A stretch of DNA of 64,000 nucleotides from Gemmatimonas aurantiaca T-27 (GTDB lineage Bacteria; Gemmatimonadota; Gemmatimonadetes; Gemmatimonadales; Gemmatimonadaceae), in NCBI RefSeq assembly GCF_000010305.1, contig NC_012489.1:992001-1056000 (forward strand). The letters are read 5' to 3'. The notes under the pieces are model-generated. The model made no database searches and was not told the DNA's origin. It saw nothing but the letters and a program-made list of their open reading frames with translations. The stretch's first letter is position 1; each line of letters opens with the position of its first letter. The position numbers and the translations under genes are program-made. Of this stretch, positions 40,146-54,406 are shown piece by piece.

Positions 40146-40550
40146 ATGCCTACGATTAACCAGCTGGTCCGCCGCGCCCGTAAGGATGTGGTGGAGAAGT
40201 CCAAAGCGCCCGCGCTCAAGAGCAATCCGTTCAAGCGTGGCGTCTGCACCCGCGTCTACACCACGACGCCCAAGAAGCCCAATTCGGCGCTGCGCAAGGT
40301 TGCGCGTATTCGTCTGACGAATCAGCTCGAAGTCACGGCTTATATCCCCGGTGAAGGCCACAACCTGCAGGAACACTCGATCGTGCTCGTGCGCGGCGGT
40401 CGTGTGAAGGACTTGCCGGGTGTGCGTTACCATATCGTTCGCGGTACGCTTGACGCCTCGGGCGTGAACGGCCGTAACCAGAGCCGTTCGAAGTACGGCA
40501 CCAAGCGTCCGAAGCCGGGTCAGGCTGCGGCTGGAGGTAAGAAGAAGTGA
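40146..40550 (+). CDS. rpsL: 30S ribosomal protein S12
   Basis: A 134-residue S12 with [20 protein letters not shown], the conserved [17 protein letters not shown] around the streptomycin-linked lysine, [16 protein letters not shown]-like text and [19 protein letters not shown] short lysine-rich tail ends the protein. It lies at the decoding centre of the 30S subunit. It is coupled to rpsG by a four-base overlap. Confidence 0.98.
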
Positions 40551-41017
40551 GCCGCCGCAAAAGTGCCGTAAAGCGTACCATCCTGCCGGATGCGCGCTAC
40601 GATAGCCAGACCGTTTCGAAGTTCATCAACTCCCTGATGATTCAGGGCAAGAAGTCCACCGCCGAAGGCATCTTCTACGGCGCCATGGACATCGTCGAAG
40701 CGAAGACCAGCCAGCCGGGTGTGGGCGTGTTCAAGCAGGCGCTCAACAACCTCAAGCCGGTGGTGGAAGTGAAGAGCCGCCGCGTCGGTGGCGCCACCTA
40801 CCAGGTGCCGGTCGAAGTCCGTCAGGATCGCCGGACGGCGCTCGCCATGCGCTGGTTGATCAGCTACTCGCGCGATCGCAACGAGAAGAGCATGAAGGAG
40901 AAGCTGGCCGCCGAAGTGCTGGCCGCTTCGCGTGGTGAAGGCAATGCGGTCAAGAAGAAGGAAGACACGCACCGCATGGCCGAAGCCAACAAGGCCTTCG
41001 CGCACTATCGTTGGTGA
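40547..41017 (+). CDS. rpsG: 30S ribosomal protein S7
   Basis: The 156-residue S7 contains [60 protein letters not shown] and the C-terminal [15 protein letters not shown], the usual end. It starts with GTG overlapping the rpsL stop (GTGA). It is not followed by fusA; a terminator comes next, and fusA lies about 11 kb away. Confidence 0.98.
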
Positions 41018-41042
41018 ACACCGAGTTGTTTGCAGGAATCAG

Positions 41043-41070
41043 AAAGGCTCCGGGATCTCCCGGGGCCTTT
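41043..41070 (+). terminator. Terminator after rpsG
   Basis: AAAGGCTCCGGG pairs with CCCGGGGCCTTT (one wobble) around the 4-base loop ATCT, followed by CTTGTTT. It closes the short rpsL-rpsG unit. Confidence 0.85.
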
Positions 41071-41246
41071 CTTGTTTCCCCGTGCCTGTGGCGTGATGGT
41101 TTCACTGGCGAAAGTTGCTGACGGCAGTCACGTTTGAGGACGTGACGGTTGGGCAAATGTGCCCGACCTGCAGGAGAGGTACGAGCGTTACCGGTTGCGG
41201 GATACTGCGGTGATGCGTCCTGACCCTGACCCCCTGCATCAGCTTC

Positions 41247-42116
41247 GTGACATCCGTTCCTGGAGCGGGACTGCGCTTGTCTTCCGTCAGAATTTTCTCT
41301 CTCCGCCTCGCGCGTCAATTGGTGCTGGCGTGCACGGTGGCGCCGGTCATGCTCCAGGCGCAGACACGAGACAGCACCCGTGTAGTCACCCCTCCGGGGC
41401 CTGCAGCATGGCACTTGCAGCTCTCGACCTTCCACAGCTCCGCTGACAACGGCTACGGCGTCTGGCAGGGGCAGGATGCGCGCCTGCTGTATTCGTCCAC
41501 GAGACTGAGTCCTTTCGTGAGCGTGGGCACGCAATCACGACCCAATGGCCGCCAGCAGGTGTTTGGCGCCGGGTCGTACATCAACATCGCGCCATGGATT
41601 TACGCCATCGTGGGTGTGGGTGGAGCGCCTGACAACGGTACGGTGCTTTTCCCCAAGATCCGCAGCGACGCCAGCGTGTTCGTCGCCGTGCCGAAGCTGA
41701 AGGGCGTGTTGGTTTCCACGGGGTTCACCGACTTGCGCTACACCGACAAGCGGGCCGGCGGGCACATCGTGTCACTCGGTTCCATGGTGTATCGCGGACG
41801 GGGCATCTACAACGCCGCCGTGTTTCTCAATGAAGATCGCGCCAGCGGCGCACGCTCGAGTGCCTGGCAGGCCGGCGGCCAGTGGGGCACGCAGGGGAAG
41901 TTCTGGGTTGGCGGTGGTGTGGGCTCGGGCAATGAAGCCTATCGATTGCTCTCCACCACGCCGTTCGACGCGCGTTTCAAGAGTCAGTTTGTCACCGCCT
42001 TCGCCTCGAAGTGGATCACGACCAGCACCGGTGTGTCCGTTCGCCTCGACTACGAACGCAAAGTGGATGTCTTCAATCGTCGTGCCATTGGCCTGACGTA
42101 CTTCATCGATTTCTGA
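41247..42116 (+). CDS. YaiO-family outer-membrane beta-barrel protein
   Basis: The 289-residue product has an N-terminal signal ending near MLQAQT, then alternating hydrophobic strands and a C-terminal phenylalanine (FIDF), as expected of an outer-membrane barrel. Segments such as HSSADNGYGVWQGQDARLLY and VSVRLDYERKVDVFNRRAIG resemble the YaiO family, which in other bacteria accompanies polysaccharide-type glycosyltransferases. The GTG at 41247 sits upstream of a plausible but long n-region. Four bases separate it from the next gene. Confidence 0.7.
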   Translation: MTSVPGAGLRLSSVRIFSLRLARQLVLACTVAPVMLQAQTRDSTRVVTPPGPAAWHLQLSTFHSSADNGYGVWQGQDARLLYSSTRLSPFVSVGTQSRPNGRQQVFGAGSYINIAPWIYAIVGVGGAPDNGTVLFPKIRSDASVFVAVPKLKGVLVSTGFTDLRYTDKRAGGHIVSLGSMVYRGRGIYNAAVFLNEDRASGARSSAWQAGGQWGTQGKFWVGGGVGSGNEAYRLLSTTPFDARFKSQFVTAFASKWITTSTGVSVRLDYERKVDVFNRRAIGLTYFIDF

Positions 42117-42120
42117 CCGT

Positions 42121-44133
42121 ATGAAGGCATCGTCGGACGCGCCCGCGTCGCGCCAGCGCTGGGTGACCTGGGCATTGGCCGCGCTCGCGACGGCGAGTCT
42201 GATGACCTGGATGGTGCAGAGTCGTGCCGTCGCACTCTGGTGGGAACAGGCGTCGTTTCTCACGTTTGTTCTCAAGTCCTTCATGCAGACGCCCGTTCTG
42301 CACGCACTGCCGTTCAAAGTCCCTGTATCCGTAGCGGATGCAGGGTTCGGCGTGCTCGGGGCGGCCATCTGTATTGCGACGGGAATGTTCGTGGCGCGCG
42401 GAGCACGTGGTGCATCGCACGCTGCGCCTGCGGGCTGGTTGACCGCTATTGCCCTGGCCGTTGTTCCCCCGATGGTGCTCGCCGGCATTGGCTGGCCTGA
42501 CGGGAAGGGCATGATCACCAGCGGCACGATGGTGATGGCGCAGGGCGCGCTGGCACTCGCGACACTTGGATGCCTGCGGATGCTGCACGGGGAAAACCGC
42601 ACGCCCCCTGCCGCCGGCACACCGCACGAAACGATCAGCACTACCACGGCTGATGTCGGTCCTGCCATGCATCGCCATGTGCTGACGTTGCTCACGATAC
42701 TGGCCGTGGTCTACTGGCTGATCGTATTGCTTGCCGGCCAGTCAGGGTTGCAAGGTTACGACTCGTTCAGTGACCATATCGCACGCCCCGCGCGATGGCT
42801 GGTGACCGGCCGACTGGAGCCGGGCATCGACGGCGAAGTCGTGACGTACTACCCCGGCAATTTCGAGATCCTCGTTCGCTGGTTGCTGTCTTTTGGCAGT
42901 GATCGTTTTGCGTTCCTGGCGTCGTATGCGAGCAGTCTGGCTTCCACCTGGGTGGTGTATCGGCTGGCGCGGGAAGTCGGACAATCGGTGTCGGCCGCGC
43001 GCCTCTCGGCGCTGGCGGCCGCTTCGCTGCAGGTGCTCGCTTACCAGAGCATCGTGGTGTACAGCGACACGTTCACGGCCCTCTGTTTGTTGTTGGCCAC
43101 GTGGCTGTTGCTGCTGTGGGTGCGCGGTGGTGGAACCGATCGATCGCTGAGCTTTGCATTCGGTCTCGCGCTTGGCATCGCGATGGGTGCCAAGTATTCG
43201 GCCGGTCCGCCTGCGGTGGTCCTCACCGTGTTCTGGGCCTGGTACGCGAGTCGCGGTCCGCAACGCGAAGGATTCGATCAGCCGTTGGTGGACTGGGGCG
43301 CGTTGGTGCAGCAGGGGCTCTGGTATGCAGCGGGCGTGCTGCCGGGCATGATCTTCTGGTATGCACGCAATCTCGTGCGCGAAGGGAATCCGCTCTATCC
43401 GCTTTCGGTGGCCGGGCTTCCGGGTATTCCGCTCGACAACCTGCTCGCTGGTGCGCCGGGGCCACGCACCTTCTGGGAGCGCGTTTCGTATCCGTGGACG
43501 GAAACGGGACACATCCTCGGTTTCGAGACCGGCCTTGGTGCAATCGTTGCCACAGTGGTGGTGCTGGCCGTACTCATGGGCCCGTGGACCAGTCAGGGGT
43601 CGCGACTGCACCGTCTGCTGTGGCTCATACTGGCCGCCGCCGCATTTGCCTGGGTGCGCACGGGTGTGCTGGTGCCGCGCTACGGATTTTTCCCGATGCT
43701 GCTGGCCTTTGTCTTCGTCGGCAGTCTGCTCACGGCATTCCCGTCACGATGGCTGCAGGGCGTCACGGCGGCGGCGATTGCCGTGACCATGGTCGGTGTC
43801 GGGTTCCAGCTCGCCGGTGGTGCCGCGTACAACATGCTGTTCTACGACGCCCGACCGCCGATCCCGGCGGTCATCGACACGCTCCCTGGATCTTCCATTG
43901 TCAATCTCGCGGCGCAGCCGTCAGGCTACTACGCGATGGGCGCCGACTATCGGCATCGGGTGTTGACGCCGTTCCGGCATTTCACGCCAGACGATGTCCG
44001 GAAGACCGGAGCGAAGTATCTCCTCGTGTTGGAGTCCGAAGAGACGGTCTACACGCGTGCATTGCCCATGCAGTTGGTGGAGCGGTGGTCACGCCCCAAT
44101 TGGCCATCCACTGCGCTGTGGCGTCTTGAATAG
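42121..44133 (+). CDS. Multi-span membrane glycosyltransferase (GT-C/ArnT-like)
   Basis: This 670-residue integral membrane protein has about 12-13 predicted helices and the GT-C layout: a large early loop with the acidic QGYDSFSDHIARPARWLVTG, repeated helices such as FAFGLALGIAMGAKYSAGPP, and a C-terminal periplasmic region (VIDTLPGSSIVNLAAQPSGY). Enzymes of this type transfer sugars from polyprenyl-phosphate donors on the outer face of the membrane. The precise acceptor is unknown. It is followed two bases later by a methyltransferase gene. Confidence 0.7.
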   Translation: MKASSDAPASRQRWVTWALAALATASLMTWMVQSRAVALWWEQASFLTFVLKSFMQTPVLHALPFKVPVSVADAGFGVLGAAICIATGMFVARGARGASHAAPAGWLTAIALAVVPPMVLAGIGWPDGKGMITSGTMVMAQGALALATLGCLRMLHGENRTPPAAGTPHETISTTTADVGPAMHRHVLTLLTILAVVYWLIVLLAGQSGLQGYDSFSDHIARPARWLVTGRLEPGIDGEVVTYYPGNFEILVRWLLSFGSDRFAFLASYASSLASTWVVYRLAREVGQSVSAARLSALAAASLQVLAYQSIVVYSDTFTALCLLLATWLLLLWVRGGGTDRSLSFAFGLALGIAMGAKYSAGPPAVVLTVFWAWYASRGPQREGFDQPLVDWGALVQQGLWYAAGVLPGMIFWYARNLVREGNPLYPLSVAGLPGIPLDNLLAGAPGPRTFWERVSYPWTETGHILGFETGLGAIVATVVVLAVLMGPWTSQGSRLHRLLWLILAAAAFAWVRTGVLVPRYGFFPMLLAFVFVGSLLTAFPSRWLQGVTAAAIAVTMVGVGFQLAGGAAYNMLFYDARPPIPAVIDTLPGSSIVNLAAQPSGYYAMGADYRHRVLTPFRHFTPDDVRKTGAKYLLVLESEETVYTRALPMQLVERWSRPNWPSTALWRLE

Positions 44134-44135
44134 CT

Positions 44136-44861
44136 ATGGACCGTGATGCCTTTACGCTGATGGCCGACGCCGAACGGGATCATTGGTGGTTCCGGGGGCG
44201 TCGGTTTTTCATCGAGCGCATGATCCAGCGGCTGTCTCTGCCACCTGCAGCGAACGTGCTCGATGCAGGATGTGGATCAGGAGGCAATCTCGCGTTGCTC
44301 TCCGGCCTTGGAACGCTGCATGGGTTCGAGTACGATGCCGAGGCCCGCGCCGTCGCCGAGACATTGGGGCTGGGGAAGATCGCGGCGGGGGCATTGCCGG
44401 ATGGCATTCCCTTCGGCGACACACGCTTCGATCTCATCGGTCTGTTCGATGTGCTCGAACATCTGGCCGAGCCGGTGCCCTCACTCGAGGCTCTGCGTTT
44501 GCGGCTTCAGGATGGCGGTGCGCTCGTGCTCACCGTGCCTGCGCTCCCATGGCTCTGGGGGCCGCACGATGTCGTGCACAATCACTATCGCCGCTACACG
44601 GCCTCCACGTTGCGCGCACACCTGACGGCGGCGGGCTATGAGGTGGAATACCTCAGCTACATGAACCTCCTGTTGTTGCCGCTTGCGGTGGCACAGCGGC
44701 TCAAAGAGCGGCTGTTTGGCTATCGGGTGGAGGCGCTCACGCCGTCACCGTTCATCAACAACCTGCTGTATCGGATCTGGCGACTGGAACGGGCCTGGAT
44801 TCCCCAACGCCGCCTGACGTTGGGATTGTCCTTGCTAGCTGTTGCCCGTCCTGCGCGGTGA
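44136..44861 (+). CDS. Class I SAM-dependent methyltransferase
   Basis: The 241-residue enzyme has the SAM-binding motif VLDAGCGSGGN at 41-51, an acidic post-I strand (GFEYDAEARAVAETL), DLIGLFDVLEHLAEPVPSLE and the later LVLTVPALPWLWGPHDVVHN. The following YRRYTASTLRAHLTAAGYEV segment is common in methyltransferases that act on sugars or lipid-linked intermediates in polysaccharide clusters. The substrate is unknown. It is cytoplasmic and shares the operon with glycosyltransferase genes. Confidence 0.85.
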   Translation: MDRDAFTLMADAERDHWWFRGRRFFIERMIQRLSLPPAANVLDAGCGSGGNLALLSGLGTLHGFEYDAEARAVAETLGLGKIAAGALPDGIPFGDTRFDLIGLFDVLEHLAEPVPSLEALRLRLQDGGALVLTVPALPWLWGPHDVVHNHYRRYTASTLRAHLTAAGYEVEYLSYMNLLLLPLAVAQRLKERLFGYRVEALTPSPFINNLLYRIWRLERAWIPQRRLTLGLSLLAVARPAR

Positions 44862-44871
44862 GCACCTGATC

Positions 44872-45642
44872 ATGCCGCCCTTGGTGCTGGTGGTGCCGTG
44901 TTTCAATGAAGCGGCCCGTCTCGACGGCGCGCGTTTCATCGAAGCGGTGGACCGCTATCCGTGGTTGCAGTTGTTGTTCGTCAATGACGGCAGCACCGAC
45001 AACACGGAGCAGGTGTTGCGCGCCCTGCAGGATCAGCGCGCCACACGCATTGCCTGCCTGCATCTGGCCCGGAACGGGGGCAAAGCTGAAGCCGTTCGGC
45101 AGGGGCTTCTCCAGGTTCAGGTATCCACCCATGAAGATGGTCTCTGCGGCTTCTGGGACGCTGACCTGTCGGCGCCGCTCACCGAGTTGGTCGCGCTGCG
45201 GGAGACGCTCGAACGTCGACCGGATGTGCAGTGGGTATGGGGGATCCGCCTGCGTGCGCTCGGTCGTCAGGTGACACGGCGTCCATTGCGCCACTATCTT
45301 GGGCGCTTGTTCGCGACCTGCAGTTCCATCGTCCTGGGCATTGACTCGTACGACACACAATGTGGTGCGAAGCTGTTTCGCAATTCCGCGCTGCTGCGCA
45401 CGGTGCTCGCTGAACCTTTCCGTTCGCGATGGATCTTCGACGTGGAACTGCTCACTCGCGCGCAGGGCGTCCTCGCATTCACCAAGCAGACCACCCTCGA
45501 ACAGGCGGTCTACGAACAGCCCCTGGGCCATTGGGAGCACCGCGCCGGCTCGAAGGTGCGCAGCGCGGATTTTGTGAATGCCCTGCGGGAACTGCTGGTG
45601 ATCCGCAACGCACGAGCGCACTGGCATCGTGCGTGCGATTGA
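44872..45642 (+). CDS. GT2 glycosyltransferase (DPM1/ALG5-like)
   Basis: This ~256-residue soluble GT2 enzyme has VLVVPCFNEAARLDG, LLFVNDGSTDNTEQVLRALQ, ARNGGKAEAVRQGL, and the metal-binding GFWDADLSAPLTEL. The later DTQCGAKLFRNSALL and RSRWIFDVELLTRA match dolichyl-phosphate-sugar synthase relatives, which make polyprenyl-phosphate sugars for GT-C enzymes. That fits the GT-C gene just upstream. ATG 44872 gives the family start; TTG 44842 would add 10 residues overlapping the methyltransferase gene. It ends directly against the convergent bactofilin-like gene. Confidence 0.88.
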   Translation: MPPLVLVVPCFNEAARLDGARFIEAVDRYPWLQLLFVNDGSTDNTEQVLRALQDQRATRIACLHLARNGGKAEAVRQGLLQVQVSTHEDGLCGFWDADLSAPLTELVALRETLERRPDVQWVWGIRLRALGRQVTRRPLRHYLGRLFATCSSIVLGIDSYDTQCGAKLFRNSALLRTVLAEPFRSRWIFDVELLTRAQGVLAFTKQTTLEQAVYEQPLGHWEHRAGSKVRSADFVNALRELLVIRNARAHWHRACD

Positions 45643-46689
45643 TCAGCTCACCGTCAGACCGTCTGCAGCGGCCATGACGGCACCATAGACGGTCGCACCT
45701 GGAAGCAGGCGGACGATCGGTGCCGTGACCGTGGTCCGCTTCCCTGAACCACCCACCACGGCGGCCTCGACCACGACGGCGGTTTCAGAGATGATCGGGC
45801 CACTGACGCGCGCGCCACGTTCGATGGTGACGCGATCACGTGCGGCGACGGAGCCCACCACCACGGCACCATTGCGCACAATCACCTCACCGTGCGCCTT
45901 GATCGATCCGGTGATGCGCGCCCCATCGTTGACGACGATGGAACCGGTCGCGATCAGTGATCCGATGAGCACACTGCCTGCCGGAATCGATACGCCGCCC
46001 TCGACACGCCAATATGCCGGCCCGAGTTCGCGGGCCTTCTTGGGCACGAATCGCTCGTAGGCGCCGGTGGGGAGTACCGGTGCTTCGGCCGTTTCGACAT
46101 CGGTGACACGAATGACATCCGATTCGAGCCGATCGAAAGCCACGTTGGTTCCCAGCACGATCTGCCGCTCTGCGGTCGCACGGCCCCACAGCCGCGAATT
46201 GTCCGCCACCTCGAGGCGACCACGGGCATGCACCCAGCGCTGCACCACGGACTGGGGGCCGAGGTACACGTCGCGCTGTCCGAGCAGCGCGCGGTACGTG
46301 ACCCGGGCGCTACCACGCACCGTCAGACGCGCCAGGCATTCGCTCGCGAGTTCCGTGCCCTCTGGCAGCGGCTCGCTGTCCATGAGCACGATGAACTCTT
46401 CGAACGCTTTGCGCTGTGCCGGCAGCGGCTGACCAACCGAATGGGTGCGCACCGTGGTGCCATCGGACAGGCGTGGCGGCACCATGGTCCCCAACAACCC
46501 TTCGCGCGTCGCGCGCGCCGTGAAGGACTCGGCGAAATACGTCAGGTTGCCGGCATCGTTGCCAACCGCATCGAGCGGTGCCGCATCCCGCGGACGCATC
46601 AACTCCATGAACGCGGGAATAAGCGGGATCGCCATCCACGCCAGCATGGTGAGCAACAGCAGGAAAAACATCATCGTGGGAGATCCCAT
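45643..46689 (-). CDS. Membrane-anchored bactofilin-like (polymer-forming) protein
   Basis: The 348-residue protein has an N-terminal membrane helix (FFLLLLTMLAWMAIPLIPAF, about 8-27), a middle region of about 200 residues, and a C-terminal right-handed beta-helix-like region (about 235-345) with repeats such as GSVLIGSLIATGSIVVNDGA, GSIKAHGEVIVRNGAVVVG and RVTIERGARVSGPI. This repeat is the mark of bactofilins, which polymerise without nucleotide. A membrane-anchored form with a long middle domain is unusual. Its ATG overlaps the GT2 synthase stop (TGATG), so translation is coupled. Confidence 0.75.
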   Translation of the reverse strand: MGSPTMMFFLLLLTMLAWMAIPLIPAFMELMRPRDAAPLDAVGNDAGNLTYFAESFTARATREGLLGTMVPPRLSDGTTVRTHSVGQPLPAQRKAFEEFIVLMDSEPLPEGTELASECLARLTVRGSARVTYRALLGQRDVYLGPQSVVQRWVHARGRLEVADNSRLWGRATAERQIVLGTNVAFDRLESDVIRVTDVETAEAPVLPTGAYERFVPKKARELGPAYWRVEGGVSIPAGSVLIGSLIATGSIVVNDGARITGSIKAHGEVIVRNGAVVVGSVAARDRVTIERGARVSGPIISETAVVVEAAVVGGSGKRTTVTAPIVRLLPGATVYGAVMAAADGLTVS

Positions 46690-47972
46690 CACTTGCTCCT
46701 CGACTGCACACGTGACTCGCGATGACGTTCCGTCTTCTGCCACTGCACGGGCTGACCACGCAACCACGACGCTCGTGACAGGGATGCCCGGCCTACCGAC
46801 ACGGTGCTCACCAGGAACCCGAGGAAGAGGAACGGCAGCATCCGGATGCGCTCACGTGAACCATCCAATCGACTGGCCGCCGCCACCTGGAAGAACGCGG
46901 CGAAGTTGCCGACGGTGTTGAAGGACGAAATCGCCAGAATGGTGACACGTCCCCACTGCGGCGGATAGCCGGCATAGAACAGGGCGATGGTGCAGAGCCA
47001 TCCTGCCAACAGCACCAGCGGCACCACGAATACACCGAGCAACAGCACGCCGTCGAGTACCTGCCAGAACGGAAGGTCGCTGCGATTGCGGATCAGGGCG
47101 CCGAGGTAGCGACGCAGAGCCTGATTGTGCCCCTTCGCCCAGCGCTTGATCTGCCGGATGCGCGATTCCCAGGTCTCTGGCACCTCTTCATAACACTCAG
47201 ACCGGTTCTGATAGACCACTTCCCAACCGGCAATCACCAAACGCACGGTGAGATCGGTGTCTTCGGCCAGCGAGTCCACACGCCAGCCGCCCACGTGATC
47301 CAATGCCGCACGACGCACGCCGCCGACGGTACCGCCATACTGCGGCACGAGGCGCAGATTCATGCGGGCCTGCTGGTCGACCTGATAACCACCGGCCCGC
47401 TCGAGATCGAGCAGGCGCGTGAGCAGCGACACGCCCACGTTCAGCGGCACAACGCGTCCCATGACTGCGCCGACTTCGGGATCGAAGAACGGTGACACGA
47501 GCTGCTTCAGGAGCCGCGTGCCGGGGATGTAGTCGGCGTCGAACACCAGAAACACTTCATCGGTGTGCAGCGCCATCGCGTCGGCGAGCGCGGCGGCCTT
47601 GCCGGGAATGCCATCGTCGCGCAGGAAGGGGATGACACGCCCGGGATAGTTCTCGGCGTACTCCACCAGGATACTGCGTGTGTCGTCGCTCGATCGATCG
47701 TCGATGGGGACGATCTTGAGGCGATCTTCCGGATAGTCACAGGTGAGCAGCGCGTCGAGCGAATCGCGCACCACGCGCGACTCGTTGTGCGCGGGCACAA
47801 ACACCACGAGTGAGGGCCAGTCTGCCTGCAGGATGTCGACAAACGGCTGCCGATGACGCCCGAACAGCCGGTTCAGCGTGAAGAAGTAGTGCCGCAGTGT
47901 GTAGATCGCGAGCACCGCGATGCAAAACCACAGCACCACATTGGACACGCTCACCAGGGTACCGACGTTCAT
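46689..47972 (-). CDS. Membrane GT2 glycosyltransferase (BcsA/PgaC-like)
   Basis: The 427-residue enzyme has an N-terminal membrane helix (NVVLWFCIAVLAIYTLRHYF), the GT2 catalytic domain with VVFVPAHNESRVVRDSL, PIDDRSSDDT, the metal-binding VFDADYIPG, the catalytic EDTDLTVRL and the processive-type IKRWAKGHNQALRR, then three or four C-terminal helices. This is the architecture of processive polysaccharide synthases such as those making cellulose or poly-N-acetylglucosamine. The product is unknown. It overlaps the next gene upstream by four bases and the bactofilin-like gene downstream. Confidence 0.88.
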   Translation of the reverse strand: MNVGTLVSVSNVVLWFCIAVLAIYTLRHYFFTLNRLFGRHRQPFVDILQADWPSLVVFVPAHNESRVVRDSLDALLTCDYPEDRLKIVPIDDRSSDDTRSILVEYAENYPGRVIPFLRDDGIPGKAAALADAMALHTDEVFLVFDADYIPGTRLLKQLVSPFFDPEVGAVMGRVVPLNVGVSLLTRLLDLERAGGYQVDQQARMNLRLVPQYGGTVGGVRRAALDHVGGWRVDSLAEDTDLTVRLVIAGWEVVYQNRSECYEEVPETWESRIRQIKRWAKGHNQALRRYLGALIRNRSDLPFWQVLDGVLLLGVFVVPLVLLAGWLCTIALFYAGYPPQWGRVTILAISSFNTVGNFAAFFQVAAASRLDGSRERIRMLPFLFLGFLVSTVSVGRASLSRASWLRGQPVQWQKTERHRESRVQSRSK

Positions 47973-48868
47973 GTGCGTCCTCCCATGCCCAGGCGACGCA
48001 TCACGAAGTTCCCGAGCATGCCACCAAGGCTCACCGCGCGTACGACGCGCGAACCGATCGGTGTGATCGCACGCACCGACTGCGGCGTCGGTGTCGGGCG
48101 CGGACGGGTGGTCGGGTAACGGGCCGGACGCATGGGCGGACGACGATCTGTGGCGTCAAGGACACCGCCGGAACGCCAGCTCATGCCCCAGCCGTACAAG
48201 GCCACATACACGAACACGTCGAGCAGTACGCCGAACACGAGGAACAGGAGCGGCATCGCCAGCACCGACGCGCGGTGGATCACCCAGGCGTGCACCGCCG
48301 CCTGCATCGGCAGGAGCAGACTCAGATGCACCAGCAGCATGGTGGCCATGGCCAGCTTCTGCCAAAGCAGGAAATCGAAAATGTGAAACGTGAACGCCAC
48401 GAGGAACGGCGCCAGCACGAGGATGATGACACCACACACCAGCAGACCGGCGATGTAGTCGGCCAGGGAGTAGGTGAACGGCGGCGAGGCGAAGCTGAAC
48501 CAGAGTTGGGCCGTCGCCTGGAGTACCGCGAGCGCGCGCAGCAGGTATCCCACAGGCAGCAGGCGGCCCTTGAGGAACATGCCTGTCACGAAGAGGATGC
48601 CACACACCAGCCATCCGGTATTCACATCGAGTGACTGCGGCCATTCGGCCGTTGCCGTGAAATACGGAATCGCCACGCCGAAGGGCCCGACTTCGAACAC
48701 CTGTGTCGAGACCACGCCCGGGAGACCCAGGGGTTCACGAATCAGGTTGAAGAAATCGCGCCAGAGTGCCATCAGGGGGTCGAGCAACGCAAACATCGCC
48801 ACCGCAAACATCAGCGGCAGCACGACCAGATCAATGAGAAGCGACCACGACACCTCGAGGCCGATCAT
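47969..48868 (-). CDS. Multi-span membrane protein of unknown function in polysaccharide operon
   Basis: The protein of about 299 residues has seven or so hydrophobic segments (for example VSWSLLIDLVVLPLMFAVAM, YIAGLLVCGVIILVLAPFLV, FLLWQKLAMATMLLVHLSLL), with a basic Pro/Arg-rich tail that faces the cytoplasm. I do not recognise the family. ATG 48868 starts at the first helix; a GTG at 48958 would add 30 residues. The tight coupling with the GT2 gene suggests a partner in synthesis or export of the same polymer. Confidence 0.65.
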   Translation of the reverse strand: MIGLEVSWSLLIDLVVLPLMFAVAMFALLDPLMALWRDFFNLIREPLGLPGVVSTQVFEVGPFGVAIPYFTATAEWPQSLDVNTGWLVCGILFVTGMFLKGRLLPVGYLLRALAVLQATAQLWFSFASPPFTYSLADYIAGLLVCGVIILVLAPFLVAFTFHIFDFLLWQKLAMATMLLVHLSLLLPMQAAVHAWVIHRASVLAMPLLFLVFGVLLDVFVYVALYGWGMSWRSGGVLDATDRRPPMRPARYPTTRPRPTPTPQSVRAITPIGSRVVRAVSLGGMLGNFVMRRLGMGGRT

Positions 48869-49008
48869 GGCTCGGTGTGGCGCAATGCGACCACCTCGGA
48901 ATCCACGATCCCGCAACTCGCTGGTGCGACGAGTCGGACTACCAGTTACGCGCGACACCGACGGCTACTCCGTGGTTGGAAAAAGTGGACGGGATGCTGG
49001 AGTCGTAC

Positions 49009-50217
49009 TCACAGTCCCACCGAAAGACGTTCGAGCGTCGCGTTGACTTGCTGATGATCGAGGCGCCGCGGTCCGCGCCGATCCTGCGGACTACGCAGCA
49101 ACGTGTCGATCACATCGGCGATGCGTTTGGCCGCGTGCCCGTCGCCAAAAGGATTCTGGCCACTCGAACGCGCCTGGTAGAGCGCAGGGTCATTGAGGAG
49201 GGCCGAGGTGCGCGACAGGATGGTCTGGGTGTCCGTACCGACCAGTTCACCAAAACCGGCATGCACGACTTCCGGACGTTCCGTGGTGTCGCGCAGGATG
49301 AGGATCGGCTTGCCGAAGGAGGGCACTTCTTCCTGGATGCCGCCGGAATCGGACAACACAAAATGCGAACGGCGAATGAGCTCGAGCAGTTCGGGATACG
49401 GCAGCGGGTCGAGCAGATGGATGCGCGGGGTCTTGCCCAGTCGCGCAAACACCACGTCGCGTACGCGGGGATTGAGATGCACCGGGAAGGCGATCTCGAC
49501 GCGCTCGTGTTGTGTGACGATGGCTTCCAGCGCGTCGCAGATGGCCTCGAGATGGTCGCCGAGGGATTCGCGACGGTGCACCGTCGTGAGCAACACCCGC
49601 CCCTCACTCCACGGGATGGCATTGAGCGCCGGCGTGTCGAATTGCGCGCGCGGTGGCACCATGTGCAGCGCATCGACCACCGTGTTGCCGGTGACGTAGA
49701 TGTCCCCGTCGGGAATGCCTTCGGCGATCAGATTGTTGCGCGCTTCGTTGGTGGGCGCGAAGTGCACATTGGCCGTGCAGGTCGCGACGCGGCGATTGAC
49801 TTCTTCCGGGAACGGGCTCGAGAGATCGAAGGAGCGTAGCCCTGCTTCGATATGCCCGATGGGGATGCCTTGATAGAAGCCAGCGAGGCAGGCGGCGGTG
49901 ACTGTGGAGGTGTCACCCTGCACCAGCAGAAAGTCGGGGCGGTGCTCGAGAAAACACTCGGTGAGCGCAGCCATCGCTCGAGCCGTGAAGACTCCGAGAT
50001 TCTGACCGTTCTGCATGAGCCCGAGGTCGATGTCGGGTTCGATCCCGAACACATCGAGTGCCTGTCGCAGCATTTCACGATGCTGCGTGGTCGCGACGAC
50101 GAGTGGCGTGAGAAACGGGTGCGCCTGCACGGCTTTGACGACCGGGGCCATCTTGATGGCTTCCGGGCGTGTGCCGATGACGATGCACACCTTGTGGAGC
50201 GCAGGAGCGACGGACAT
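49009..50217 (-). CDS. wecB: UDP-N-acetylglucosamine 2-epimerase (non-hydrolysing)
   Basis: This 402-residue enzyme interconverts UDP-GlcNAc and UDP-ManNAc. It has VCIVIGTRPEAIKMAPVVKA at the start, LLVQGDTSTVTAACLAGFYQ, IGHIEAGLRSFD, VLLTTVHRRESLGDHLEAIC and SDSGGIQEEVPSFGKPILIL, the full set expected of the non-hydrolysing group. ATG 50217 was chosen because the family starts right before KVCIVIGTRPE. Together with the neighbouring transferases it points to a ManNAc- or hexosamine-containing surface glycan. The gap to the membrane-protein gene downstream is 140 bases. Confidence 0.95.
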   Translation of the reverse strand: MSVAPALHKVCIVIGTRPEAIKMAPVVKAVQAHPFLTPLVVATTQHREMLRQALDVFGIEPDIDLGLMQNGQNLGVFTARAMAALTECFLEHRPDFLLVQGDTSTVTAACLAGFYQGIPIGHIEAGLRSFDLSSPFPEEVNRRVATCTANVHFAPTNEARNNLIAEGIPDGDIYVTGNTVVDALHMVPPRAQFDTPALNAIPWSEGRVLLTTVHRRESLGDHLEAICDALEAIVTQHERVEIAFPVHLNPRVRDVVFARLGKTPRIHLLDPLPYPELLELIRRSHFVLSDSGGIQEEVPSFGKPILILRDTTERPEVVHAGFGELVGTDTQTILSRTSALLNDPALYQARSSGQNPFGDGHAAKRIADVIDTLLRSPQDRRGPRRLDHQQVNATLERLSVGL

Positions 50218-50545
50218 CAGCGGTCTAGACGTGGGAGAGCTCGCCGGGGCCACCGGTCGGTGACGCCCGTCGCTGTGGAGGTGTGACAACGTCGATTCCG
50301 GAGCAATCGTATCTCGCCGGATCGGGCGCCAGGGCGTGCAGGTGTGAGGATTGGCATCCCGCTGCCACACTGCCTCTGCAGCACCGTCACAGATCGAGCG
50401 CCCAGCAATATGGCATACTGACCTGATCGTGGTGAGGGAGGTGCGCTAGATCACCCCATTCATCGCTCGTGCTGGCAGTAACGGGAAAAAGAAGGCGCCC
50501 CCTGTCGTGAGACAGGGGGCGCCGACGTTCTTCGCGTGATGCCGA
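50218..50545. other. Intergenic region between wecB and the PEP-CTERM gene
   Basis: About 330 bases on the minus-strand path between the two genes. It holds the PEP-CTERM terminator at 50481-50523 and presumably the wecB promoter. I see no convincing promoter boxes and no RNA gene. Confidence 0.4.
50481..50523 (-). terminator. Terminator of the PEP-CTERM gene
   Basis: A perfect 13-bp stem (GGCGCCCCCTGTC at 50494-50506 with GACAGGGGGCGCC at 50511-50523) and a 4-base loop. On the minus strand it is followed by TTCTTTTTCCC. It lies 22 bases after the PEP-CTERM stop codon. Confidence 0.93.
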
Positions 50546-51301
50546 TCAGGCCTGCTGCTGCTTGCGGCGACGCGCCACCAGACCCAGTGCCAGCAGACCC
50601 GCGCCCATCAGCGCGTAGGTCGACGGCTCGGGAACGACCGTACCGGCCGCGCCCACCGTGAAGCCGTGCCAGTTCTCGTTCTGTTCCACCGTGAACTGGA
50701 TCGTGTTCATCGAACCCGCGAAGCGCAGCACGCCGCTGAATTCGATACCCGTGAACAGGTAGCCCAGCAGCGGATCGAACCCGGTCGTGTACGTGCCGTT
50801 GCCCCAGTACGCTCCCGGCGTGGTTCCCGGCGCATTGTTCGAGATGATCTCGAAGGGGCGATCAAAGGCGTAGGTCACCGCGTTGTTGGCGTTGCCGACG
50901 CTGATCAGGGCGATGTACGGATCGATCACGGCCTGACTGAAGGTGATCGTGCTCGGCCGGATCGGCTGATAGCCGTTCGGGCCAGCGGCCACCATGTCGA
51001 TCAACTGGATGAACGACGAGTTGTCGGGCATCGGGTTGTACGAGCCCGGCGAACCGCTGAAATAATTGATGCCGCCAGTCGGCACCGAGCCAGCGCCCCA
51101 GCTACCGGTTGGAGCCGCGCAGCCATTGCCGGCGGCGTCGACGACACCGTTGTACTGACCGGTGTAGGAAACGGTCGTGCTGCCGAATGACCCGGTGACG
51201 GTCGAGGAACACGACGCGTTCCAGGACGCCCAGGTCTGCGCCGTGAGGGCACTCGGGAGAGCGAGGAGAGCAGCGACCGCGAACGTCAGGGACTTCTTCA
51301 T
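50546..51301 (-). CDS. PEP-CTERM sorting-domain exported protein
   Basis: The 251-residue protein has a signal peptide (MKKSLTFAVAALLALPSALT, cleaved before QTWA), a Ser/Thr/Gly/Asn-rich mature domain with short strands, and a classic C-terminal sorting signal: VVPEPSTYALMGAGLLALGL then ARRRKQQQA. The PEP motif, hydrophobic helix and basic end are recognised by an exosortase that anchors or releases the protein at the surface, usually together with an exopolysaccharide. No exosortase gene lies in this window. ATG 51301 follows GAGG at good spacing; its own promoter and terminator are visible. Confidence 0.93.
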   Translation of the reverse strand: MKKSLTFAVAALLALPSALTAQTWASWNASCSSTVTGSFGSTTVSYTGQYNGVVDAAGNGCAAPTGSWGAGSVPTGGINYFSGSPGSYNPMPDNSSFIQLIDMVAAGPNGYQPIRPSTITFSQAVIDPYIALISVGNANNAVTYAFDRPFEIISNNAPGTTPGAYWGNGTYTTGFDPLLGYLFTGIEFSGVLRFAGSMNTIQFTVEQNENWHGFTVGAAGTVVPEPSTYALMGAGLLALGLVARRRKQQQA

Positions 51302-51450
51302 GGTGTTAGGCCTCATGGGCACAGAAGATAGCGAAGTGACTCAACGCACAGTAGAGGTGCGACGCTCATCCTGAATGCATCTGGCGTACCACGGTCGATC
51401 CTGGCGATGGAATGCCCCCTTGCCGACCGCGGTCAGGTACCTCGATGAAT

Positions 51451-51479
51451 AGTATATAACGCCTTGCCGTGGAATGACA
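51451..51479 (-). promoter_or_regulatory. Candidate promoter of the PEP-CTERM gene
   Basis: On the minus strand TGTCAT and TATACT are separated by 17 bases. The minus-10 box is close to consensus and the minus-35 is weak. The implied leader is about 145 bases. Confidence 0.4.
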
Positions 51480-51761
51480 TATACGCTCGTGGCCGCCATT
51501 GCACCTGGGGGTCTGAATGGTCGAGTTCGGCATATGTTACCAAACGGCGAGTGTTGCATCTGCAGCAGAGGTGATACGGACTCATCGTGGTCTGTAGGAT
51601 TCATGCAACGGTTTGTGGCCTGCTGGTGCGGCCAGTCTTCCCAGGGCACGTGCCCACCCGTCCCTTCCCTTCATGTAGACTTGGCGCAGACCAGCGACCG
51701 AAGGTACGCCGGACCGGCTGAACGACCGATGAACGCGCCCATGCGCCGGCCGATGTACCTC

Positions 51762-51795
51762 GATGATGTATGTGGATGATGTATGTGATGATGTG
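51762..51795 (+). repeat. Short tandem repeat, unit GATGATGTATGTG
   Basis: Two exact adjacent 13-base copies (51762-51774 and 51775-51787) are followed by a partial copy ATGATGTG. It lies in the noncoding region upstream of fusA. Length may vary between strains. Confidence 0.7.
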
Positions 51796-51866
51796 CACCG
51801 CTGCCCGAATGTGCGCCGTCGTGCCCGGTGGTGTGGCCGGAGGCTGTAATCCCTCTGTGGGCTGGG

Positions 51867-51895
51867 TTGACTTGCCTCACGGCCTCGCTCATCTT
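51867..51895 (+). promoter_or_regulatory. Candidate promoter upstream of fusA-tuf-S10
   Basis: TTGACT and CATCTT lie 17 bases apart (or ATCTTA at 18). The minus-35 match is good, and the minus-10 resembles the TACCTT proposed for rpmG. The distance to fusA is about 390 bases, so other promoters closer to the gene are possible. Confidence 0.3.
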
Positions 51896-52285
51896 AGGTG
51901 ACTGCCGAAAAACGCCGCCCCTTGGGGCGACACCGGCACCCGCTTTCTGTCGGCGATCTGCGGCCGACTCCTATGGGCCACGGCCAGTGCGGCGTGGGGT
52001 GTCAGTGATGGTTCGCCACTACTGATGCGCTGTACCGGCGACTCCACCGTGATGGTGCGGGCCGCTCCCGAAACACAACGCAGCCAATTCAACGTCGTTC
52101 CTGGAGTCAGCAGTTCTTCGGGGTCGGCGCGCTTGGGTCCCCACTCGTGCAGCAGCGGCGAGCGTACCCGGCGACAGCGGATGGATACCGCTCCTGCATC
52201 ACGGCAGGGGGCCAGGTCCAGCCGTTTTTTTGCTGGTCAACCTCGTTCTCCCACTGCGCCGTTTCGGCGGCGCTGACTGAAGACT

Positions 52286-54406
52286 ATGCCGCGTACGACC
52301 CCGCTCGAGCACTACCGCAATATCGGCATCATGGCGCACATCGATGCCGGCAAGACGACCACCACTGAGCGCATCCTCTATTACACGGGGAAGTCGCACA
52401 AGATTGGTGAAGTGCATGATGGCGCTGCCACCATGGACTGGATGGAGCAGGAACAGGAGCGCGGCATCACGATCACGTCTGCTGCGACGACCTGCTTCTG
52501 GATGCGCCATGGCCAGTCGCATGAGAAGGGCACGGGTGCGGAATACCGCATCAACATCATCGACACCCCGGGACACGTCGACTTCACGGTCGAAGTGGAG
52601 CGTTCGCTCCGCGTACTCGACGGCGCCGTGACGCTGCTCGACTCGGTGGCCGGTGTGGAGCCGCAGACCGAAACGGTGTGGCGTCAGGCCGATCGGTATC
52701 GCGTGCCGCGCATGATCTTCTCGAACAAGATGGATCGCGTGGGCGCGAACTTCGATCGCTGCCTCGCCATGATCCGCGACCGCCTGAGCAAGCGCGCGTT
52801 CCCGCTGCAGCTGCCGGTCGGATCGGGTGAGACGTTCACGGGCCACATCGACGTGCTCGAGCGCAAGCAGTACATCTTCCACGACGAGACGATGGGCAAG
52901 ACGTTCTCGGTGGTCGATGTGCCGGAAGAGTTCAAGGATGCCTGTGAGATCGCCCGTCACGAAGCGATCGAAGCGGCCGTCGAACATGACGAAACGCTGA
53001 TGGAGAAGTATCTCGCCGGCGAAGAGCTCTCCATGGAAGAGATCCGTCGCGCGATCCGTCAGGCGACGATCGCCATGGAATTCATCCCGGTGTTCTGCGG
53101 CGCCTCGTTCAAGAACAAGGGCGTGCAGGCGTTGCTCGATGCCGTGATCGATTACCTCCCGGCGCCGATCGACGTGCCGGCGATCAAGGGACACCTGCCG
53201 CACCACGACGAAACGTTCATCGAAGCGCCGATCAAGGACGACGCGCCGTTTGCCGCGCTGGCGTTCAAGATTGCCACCGATCCGTTCGTCGGTAAGCTGA
53301 CGTTCTTCCGCGTCTACTCGGGCGTGATGGCGTCGGGTTCGTACGTGTACAACAGCACGAAGGACAAGCGCGAGCGTGTCGGCCGTCTGTTGCAGATGCA
53401 CGCCAACAAGCGTGAAGAAATCGAAGAGGTGCGCGCGGGTGACATCGCGGCCGCCATCGGTCTCAAGGACACGCGCACGGGCGATACGCTCTGCACCGAG
53501 GACAATCCGATCATCCTCGAAGCGATGAAGTTCCCGAACCCCGTCATCGACGTCGCCATCGAGCCGAAGACGAAGGCCGACCAGGACAAGCTGGCCATCG
53601 CGCTGCAGAAGCTGGCCGAAGAAGATCCGACGTTCCGTGTGCGTTCCGACGCCGAGACGGGCCAGACGATCATCGCCGGCATGGGCGAACTGCACCTCGA
53701 GATCATCGTCGATCGCATGATGCGCGAATTCAAGGTCGACGCGAACGTGGGCCGTCCGCAGGTGGCCTATCGCGAAACGATCAAGAAGCGCGTCGAGAAG
53801 ATCGAAGGCAAGTTTGTCCGCCAGTCAGGCGGTAAGGGTCAGTACGGCCACGTGGTCATCAACATGGAGCCCAGCGAGCAGGGTCAGGGCTACGTGTTCG
53901 AAGACAAGGTCGTGGGCGGTGTCATTCCGCGTGAGTACATCGGACCGGTGGAGCAGGGCATCAAGGAAGCGCTCGAGACGGGCGTCCTGGCCGGCTACCC
54001 GGTGGTGGACATCAAGGTGCAGCTGGTGTACGGCTCGTACCACGACGTCGACTCCTCGGAAATGGCGTTCAAGATCGCCGGCTCCATGGCATTCAAGGAG
54101 GCGGCCAAGCAGGCCAGCCCCTGTCTGCTCGAGCCGGTGATGAAGGTCGAGGTCGTGAGCCCCGAAGCCTACATGGGCGACGTCCTTGGCGATCTCTCCT
54201 CGCGGCGCGGCAAGATCGGCGGCATGACGCAGCGTGGTGAGGCGCAGGTGATCTCGGCGACCGTGCCGCTCGCTGAGATGTTCGGTTACTCGACCAAGCT
54301 TCGCAGCATGTCGCAGGGTCGGGCGGTCTACTCGATGGAGTTCTCGCACTACGAAGAAGTGCCGAAGTCGAAGGCCGAAGAGATCATCAGCAAGGTGAAG
54401 GCGTAA
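52286..54406 (+). CDS. fusA: Elongation factor G
   Basis: This 706-residue translational GTPase has the G1 loop [10 protein letters not shown] (17-26), switch regions around [13 protein letters not shown] and [10 protein letters not shown]4 NKMD, then domains II-V including [20 protein letters not shown] and the C-terminal [20 protein letters not shown]. It drives translocation and ribosome recycling. Length is normal. It starts the downstream half of the split str operon, with tuf 41 bases after it. Confidence 0.98.

Follow-up and report, generated by a model that had tools for sequence, protein, structure and literature searches.

A wecB-linked polysaccharide synthase cassette with a bactofilin-like partner between rpsG and fusA of Gemmatimonas aurantiaca: a putative exopolysaccharide system

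Few synthase-dependent exopolysaccharide systems have been characterised so far. A periplasmic TPR scaffold is a feature of the Pga, Bcs, Alg, Pel and Nfr systems. PgaC of the PNAG systems is a GlcNAc polymerase, and NGR of Escherichia coli, the receptor of phage N4, is a glycan made by NfrB. In many species wecB is clustered with the nfrB synthase gene (PMC8669469, PMC8669472). The use of UDP-ManNAc by NfrB has been argued on the grounds that wecB alone among the ECA genes is needed and that wecB adjoins nfrB wherever there is no other wecB (PMC8669472, PMC8669469). As for scaffolds, the bactofilin BacA recruits PbpC, a cell-wall synthase, and a transmembrane helix is rare among bactofilins (PMC12448750).

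The window analysed here is a stretch of 64,000 nucleotides, bases 992001-1056000 of the single 4,636,964-base chromosome of G. aurantiaca T-27. In the window, the str operon is interrupted between the end of rpsG (41017) and the start of fusA (52286) by an island at 41247-51301 that is made up of two convergent gene blocks. A first-pass annotation had placed nine genes in the island and proposed a surface-polysaccharide locus. All nine were found in place by an ORF check and family scans, and they are given below with the two genes that border the slot.

40547..41017, plus strand: rpsG, left border of the slot, also located in relatives by tblastn
41247..42116, plus strand: YaiO-family outer-membrane beta-barrel, above the cut-offs of both its models (TIGR04390, 204.7 bits, cut-off 32; PF19413, 48.4 bits)
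42121..44133, plus strand: 670-aa polytopic protein of the optional block, possibly a GT-C glycosyltransferase by appearance only
44136..44861, plus strand: SAM methyltransferase of the optional block (PF13489, 62 bits)
44872..45642, plus strand: small GT2 of the optional block, possibly a polyprenyl-phosphate-sugar synthase (PF00535, 52 bits); alternative start at 44842
45643..46689, minus strand: bactofilin-like protein (PF04519, 30.6 bits, above the gathering cut-off of 27.9)
46689..47972, minus strand: GT2 membrane polysaccharide synthase (PF13641)
47969..48868, minus strand: six-helix inner-membrane protein, the "multi-span protein" of the first-pass annotation (no family match; AlphaFold2 model)
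49009..50217, minus strand: wecB, non-hydrolysing UDP-GlcNAc 2-epimerase (TIGR00236, 442 bits, cut-off 210); ATG at 50217, ORF extendable to 50370
50546..51301, minus strand: PEP-CTERM surface protein, peripheral (PF07589 / TIGR02595, 32 bits, cut-off 20.7)
52286..54406, plus strand: fusA, right border of the slot, also located in relatives by tblastn

The minus-strand genes for WecB, the six-helix protein, the GT2 synthase and the bactofilin-like protein form the core unit (45643-50217), to which the YaiO barrel also belongs. We consider it probable, at about 70%, that UDP-ManNAc feeds a synthase-dependent exopolysaccharide system encoded by these core genes, with the bactofilin-like protein as a scaffold on the cytoplasmic side. 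In the proposed mechanism, WecB would convert UDP-GlcNAc to UDP-ManNAc, which the GT2 synthase and its six-helix inner-membrane partner would polymerise while passing the chain through the inner membrane. The YaiO barrel would be the exit of the polymer at the outer membrane. A single helix would anchor the bactofilin-like protein, leaving the solenoid on the cytoplasmic side, and the protein would keep the synthase in place or gather it into clusters, in the way that BacA recruits PbpC. We infer the substrate, the polymer, the export path, the topology and the role of the scaffold from homology, linkage, motifs and predicted folds.

The NGR/Nfr system resembles this set in having an inner-membrane GT2 synthase, an outer-membrane pore and WecB for UDP-ManNAc. 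The window system, however, has no NfrB-family synthase, MshEN domain, NfrA-type TPR pore or YbcH, and adds the six-helix and bactofilin-like proteins. Profiles of the core families compared with E. coli NfrA, YbcH and NfrB gave no distant-homology signal for the partner proteins. In the PNAG systems (PgaABCD/IcaABCD), PgaC provides the best model for the synthase and PgaD is also a small membrane partner; the deacetylation carried out by PgaB is paralleled by deacetylase-like genes of the cassette in other phyla. In contrast to PNAG loci, family scans of the island proteins gave no PgaA, PgaB or PgaD annotation, and wecB is linked to the synthase. The uncharacterised yaiS-yaiP-yaiX-yaiO cluster of E. 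coli also brings together a GT2 (YaiP), a hexapeptide beta-helix protein (YaiX), a YaiO barrel and a deacetylase. The similarity is weak (51, 19 and 13 bits for YaiP, YaiX and YaiO, respectively), and that cluster, unlike the window set, lacks wecB and the six-helix protein; the window system may be a distant cousin of it. The cellulose cortical belt of Komagataeibacter/Gluconacetobacter shares the idea of a cytoplasmic scaffold that aligns polysaccharide synthases, but the belt protein has not been identified as a bactofilin, and the synthase family and the accessory genes are different (PMC7811197). The first-pass annotation knew of no polysaccharide system described with these genes, and searches of the open-access literature brought up none either.

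The synthase carries the processive-type GT2 motifs D, DxD, ED and QxxRW (D92, DAD 145-147, ED 237-238 and Q274-R277-W278), all of which are invariant in an alignment of 21 homologues. It had been described as BcsA/PgaC-like. The protein is a PgaC-like GT2 with cellulose synthase among its PDB relatives. PgaC is the nearest named model (TIGR03937), but the score of 123 bits is far below the cut-off of 422.3, so the protein is not PgaC itself. It is not NfrB either, since it scores 13 bits against E. coli NfrB and has no MshEN domain. In a tree with E. coli PgaC, YaiP, NfrB and BcsA the synthase family stayed together; the outgroups lay on very long branches, so that their placement is meaningless.

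The six-helix gene overlaps the synthase gene by 4 bases (47969-47972). Its product, like members of its family in relatives, had no Pfam or NCBIfam match in the family scans; it had no PDB match by sequence, and structure searches of the PDB gave no convincing resemblance; by these comparisons it appears to be a new family. In the AlphaFold2 model (pLDDT 87.5), six long helices are accompanied by a hairpin at 53-70. The tail is basic, and together these features suggest that both termini are cytoplasmic.

The first-pass annotation had named, as a check, a search of other genomes for the trio of synthase, bactofilin-like protein and multi-span protein. A search of 61 genomes with the six-helix protein gave a match in 16, the window's own included, and we compared the surroundings of the other 15 loci, 14 in the same genus and one in another family. 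The gene order in the genus is wecB, (YaiO), six-helix protein, synthase and bactofilin-like protein. Among the 15 genus loci including the window, rpsG and fusA flank the cassette in 8, one border is reached before the contig end in six, and one lies on a contig too short for borders. Identity to the window proteins within the genus is 78-87% for the synthases, 45-76% for the six-helix proteins and 54-75% for the bactofilin-like proteins. In profile searches of 395 Gemmatimonadota genomes, the six-helix protein and the full-length bactofilin-like protein were found in exactly the same 26. A further 71 genomes gave weak, partial matches to the bactofilin profile, mostly at residues 220-300. 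Since these matches mostly cover the bactofilin domain, as in ordinary bactofilins, the bactofilin profile alone is misleading for co-occurrence. The synthase, six-helix and bactofilin-like genes are retained in eleven loci outside the genus and in the G056 locus; in most of these, wecB and YaiO are likewise present, with the order unchanged. In two loci outside the genus (L060 and L062) the cassette likewise lies between rpsG and fusA. The trio is strongly conserved, and in several phyla.

The conserved set, which is not peculiar to the window genome, is narrower in one direction and wider in another than first described: wecB and YaiO belong to it, but the GT-C/methyltransferase/small-GT2 block and the window's PEP-CTERM gene do not. 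We considered whether the whole island at 41247-51301 could be one glycan locus, in which the GT-C-like protein, the methyltransferase and the small GT2 would take part in building or capping the polymer. The block (42121-45642, plus strand) occurs in only three of the 15 genus loci (the window, L019 and L022). In all three, the YaiO gene sits with the block and is missing from its place beside wecB, which would fit such a joint locus; so would another GT-C-like family near five loci in other phyla. That family, however, has no match to the window's GT-C-like protein, the block is missing from most cassettes, and its strand is opposite to that of the core. The island as a single unit was rejected on the ground that the block is optional, and a contribution of the block to the polymer seems to us improbable. 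The GT-C-like protein had no Pfam or NCBIfam match in the family scans, and the small GT2 had no PDB relative by sequence. The YaiO gene lies at the far end of the island here and between wecB and the six-helix gene in most relatives; its product is likely to be the export pore.

An exosortase gene is present elsewhere in the chromosome (658232-658984). Relatives carry a distinct PEP-CTERM family near the cassette (L020:6003-7109, L023:12565-13677, L024:6208-7614 and L033:14391-15257) with the pattern ELVWEGYYNQ ... FWYVRPP ... GVAVGVGSQWP. This family, from which the window's PEP-CTERM protein differs, was also seen in another family of the order.

A search of GTDB genomes with the alignment of 21 synthases gave 350 relatives, the best 80 of which were examined. 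These loci are not independent events, and many come from metagenome bins. They belong to Gemmatimonadota, Acidobacteriota, Pseudomonadota, Rhodothermota, Eisenbacteria, Krumholzibacteriota and others. Near the synthase, the bactofilin-like gene was present in 79, the six-helix gene in 73, wecB in 68 and YaiO in 65, and all five families lay within about 9 kb in 58 of the best 80. An outer-membrane beta-barrel is therefore encoded with the synthase, as is expected of synthase-dependent systems. Many of the absences fall at contig ends; in L028, YaiO was not found and the absence is not attributed to a contig end. The gene order varies between phyla, so common descent of a single stretch does not fully account for the linkage. 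In phyla other than Gemmatimonadota, a deacetylase-like gene was found at 30 loci (within the cassette span in 26) and an alpha/alpha-toroid-like gene at 21 (within the span in 20). The "toroid" label is a reading of the sequence pattern, and the protein had no PDB or Pfam match. In these phyla the operon-encoded deacetylase-like and toroid-like proteins might trim or modify the chain.

A complete copy of the cassette was found on an IncI1/B/O conjugative plasmid of Escherichia fergusonii from sheep faeces (NZ_CP057682.1; L201:6581-13206), in the order 165-aa bactofilin-domain protein, wecB, YaiO, six-helix protein, acyltransferase, toroid-like protein and synthase. The plasmid cassette was not found in 5,426 E. 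coli genomes, and at megablast sensitivity it was in no other plasmid. A contig labelled Candidatus Kuenenia (L109, CALQGY020000163.1) carries a Gemmatimonas-like cassette and rpsG; it is probably a binning error and was not counted as an extra phylum.

The bactofilin-like gene had been reported to be translationally coupled to the synthase gene through TGATG. The sequence bears this out, with the synthase stop at 46691-46689 and the ATG of the bactofilin-like gene at 46689-46687. Among the best 80 loci, the overlap of the two genes measures 4 bases in 45 and 1 base in 10, and its recurrence in 55 of 80 homologous loci indicates that it is not due to chance. The AlphaFold2 model (pLDDT 94.2) showed a helix at 4-31, the single N-terminal transmembrane helix, with most of the remainder folded as a beta-solenoid, the C-terminal part of which is the bactofilin domain. 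Residues 230-342 matched the bactofilin BacA (2n3d) at the top rank, with Z 8.6 and an rmsd of 2.4 A over 101 of 103 residues. Further beta-helix proteins followed within 1 Z unit. A sequence search of the PDB with the profile gave no match. The protein is thus like Caulobacter BacA in its PF04519 match and its beta-helix fold, and differs in having the transmembrane helix and an extra N-terminal solenoid. The known client of BacA is PbpC, a cell-wall synthase, unlike the polysaccharide synthase proposed here.

There is another possible interpretation of this protein. In the same exopolysaccharide system, the solenoid could be periplasmic and could handle or modify the polymer, as beta-helix enzymes do in alginate assembly. 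The predicted solenoid spans the entire soluble part, middling structural matches (Z 5-8) to polysaccharide-active beta-helix enzymes were obtained, and the N-terminal helix could act as a signal anchor. The charge distribution argues against it: in 57 homologues there was no K/R before the helix and about 3 after it. By the positive-inside rule, which is weak for one helix, this suggests that the solenoid is on the cytoplasmic side. A periplasmic location also accords poorly with the presence of about five Cys per protein, with the few conserved polar residues in the alignment, and with the E. fergusonii member, in which no transmembrane helix is evident. We therefore regard the periplasmic location as unlikely and prefer a cytoplasmic scaffold.

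The rpsG-fusA slot is shared with a different synthase. Among 30 genomes of the genus, the bactofilin-linked cassette was present in 15 and an NfrB-type synthase in 7; none had both, and eight had neither, several of these eight being incomplete. The probability of zero overlap by chance is about 0.003 (hypergeometric), on the assumption of independence among species that are in fact related, and mutual exclusion of the two cassettes is only suggestive. In four genomes (G028, G029, G005 and G016), rpsG and fusA flank the NfrB-type genes together with those for a TPR protein, WecB and a secreted protein. Over about 530 residues, the NfrB-type synthases of these sister species share 36-37% identity with E. 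coli NfrB (310-324 bits). Since both cassettes lie between rpsG and fusA, one slot is used by two unrelated wecB-linked synthase cassettes.

These facts bear on the sugar that is polymerised. WecB retains the motif GTRPEAIKMAP and is predicted to supply UDP-ManNAc. UDP-ManNAc is proposed as the substrate because the linkage argument made for NfrB and wecB also applies here: wecB accompanies the synthase in 68 of the 80 loci, and the second wecB-like gene of the chromosome (691960-692994) is only 38% identical and adjoins a UDP-sugar dehydrogenase-like gene, an arrangement as in other envelope-sugar loci. The genome nevertheless has two wecB-like genes, and wecB or YaiO was not found in some loci. 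UDP-GlcNAc, alone or along with UDP-ManNAc, might be the substrate of the synthase. The polymer could be other than ManNAc-based, with WecB supplying a polymer of mixed or different composition, or a separate pathway. The 123-bit match to a GlcNAc polymerase, PgaC, and the loci with no wecB found in the vicinity of the synthase would agree with this. The linkage of wecB across phyla and the slot common to the NfrB/wecB system speak against it, and we think such a polymer improbable. A further point against a UDP-ManNAc-fed exopolysaccharide system, which we still prefer, is that its five proteins appear to lack the periplasmic TPR, PilZ and MshEN domains of classical systems. Family scans of the island proteins gave no TPR match, including in YaiO, and none to the c-di-GMP receptor domains PilZ and MshEN.

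A wider reading is put forward only tentatively. The core genes may represent a second family of ManNAc exopolysaccharide machine supplied by WecB, unrelated to the NGR type, which extends over several phyla and at least one conjugative plasmid. In it, a dedicated bactofilin-type scaffold would set the site of synthesis on the cell, and at one chromosomal slot the family would alternate with the NGR type, possibly driven by phages. We think this wider reading less likely than not. The gene set is tight, occurs in many uncultured and some cultured bacteria, has been annotated piecemeal and has its own cytoskeleton-like protein. It opens two testable questions, namely which polymer is made by UDP-ManNAc-linked synthases and whether a bactofilin can position a polysaccharide synthase. 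The exchange with an NfrB-type cassette seen in sister species amounts to a natural experiment on the replacement of surface glycans.

The rpsG-fusA gap (41017-52286 in the window; L188, L189, L190, L191 and L194 in relatives) is a variable slot, which holds either of the two wecB-linked synthase cassettes or other genes, or is empty. The empty slot, of 344 bases, is that of G112, where the cassette is elsewhere. In sister species, a 272-aa secreted protein with a weak match to 3-keto-disaccharide hydrolase precedes the NfrB-type cassette (L188:1664-2482). In G025, a long ORF beside rpsG (L192:86-4212) ends in what looks by eye like a TPR-plus-barrel protein and is preceded by a possible PilZ-type protein (86-574). 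Judged by eye, these ORFs may belong to a third, cellulose-like exopolysaccharide locus.
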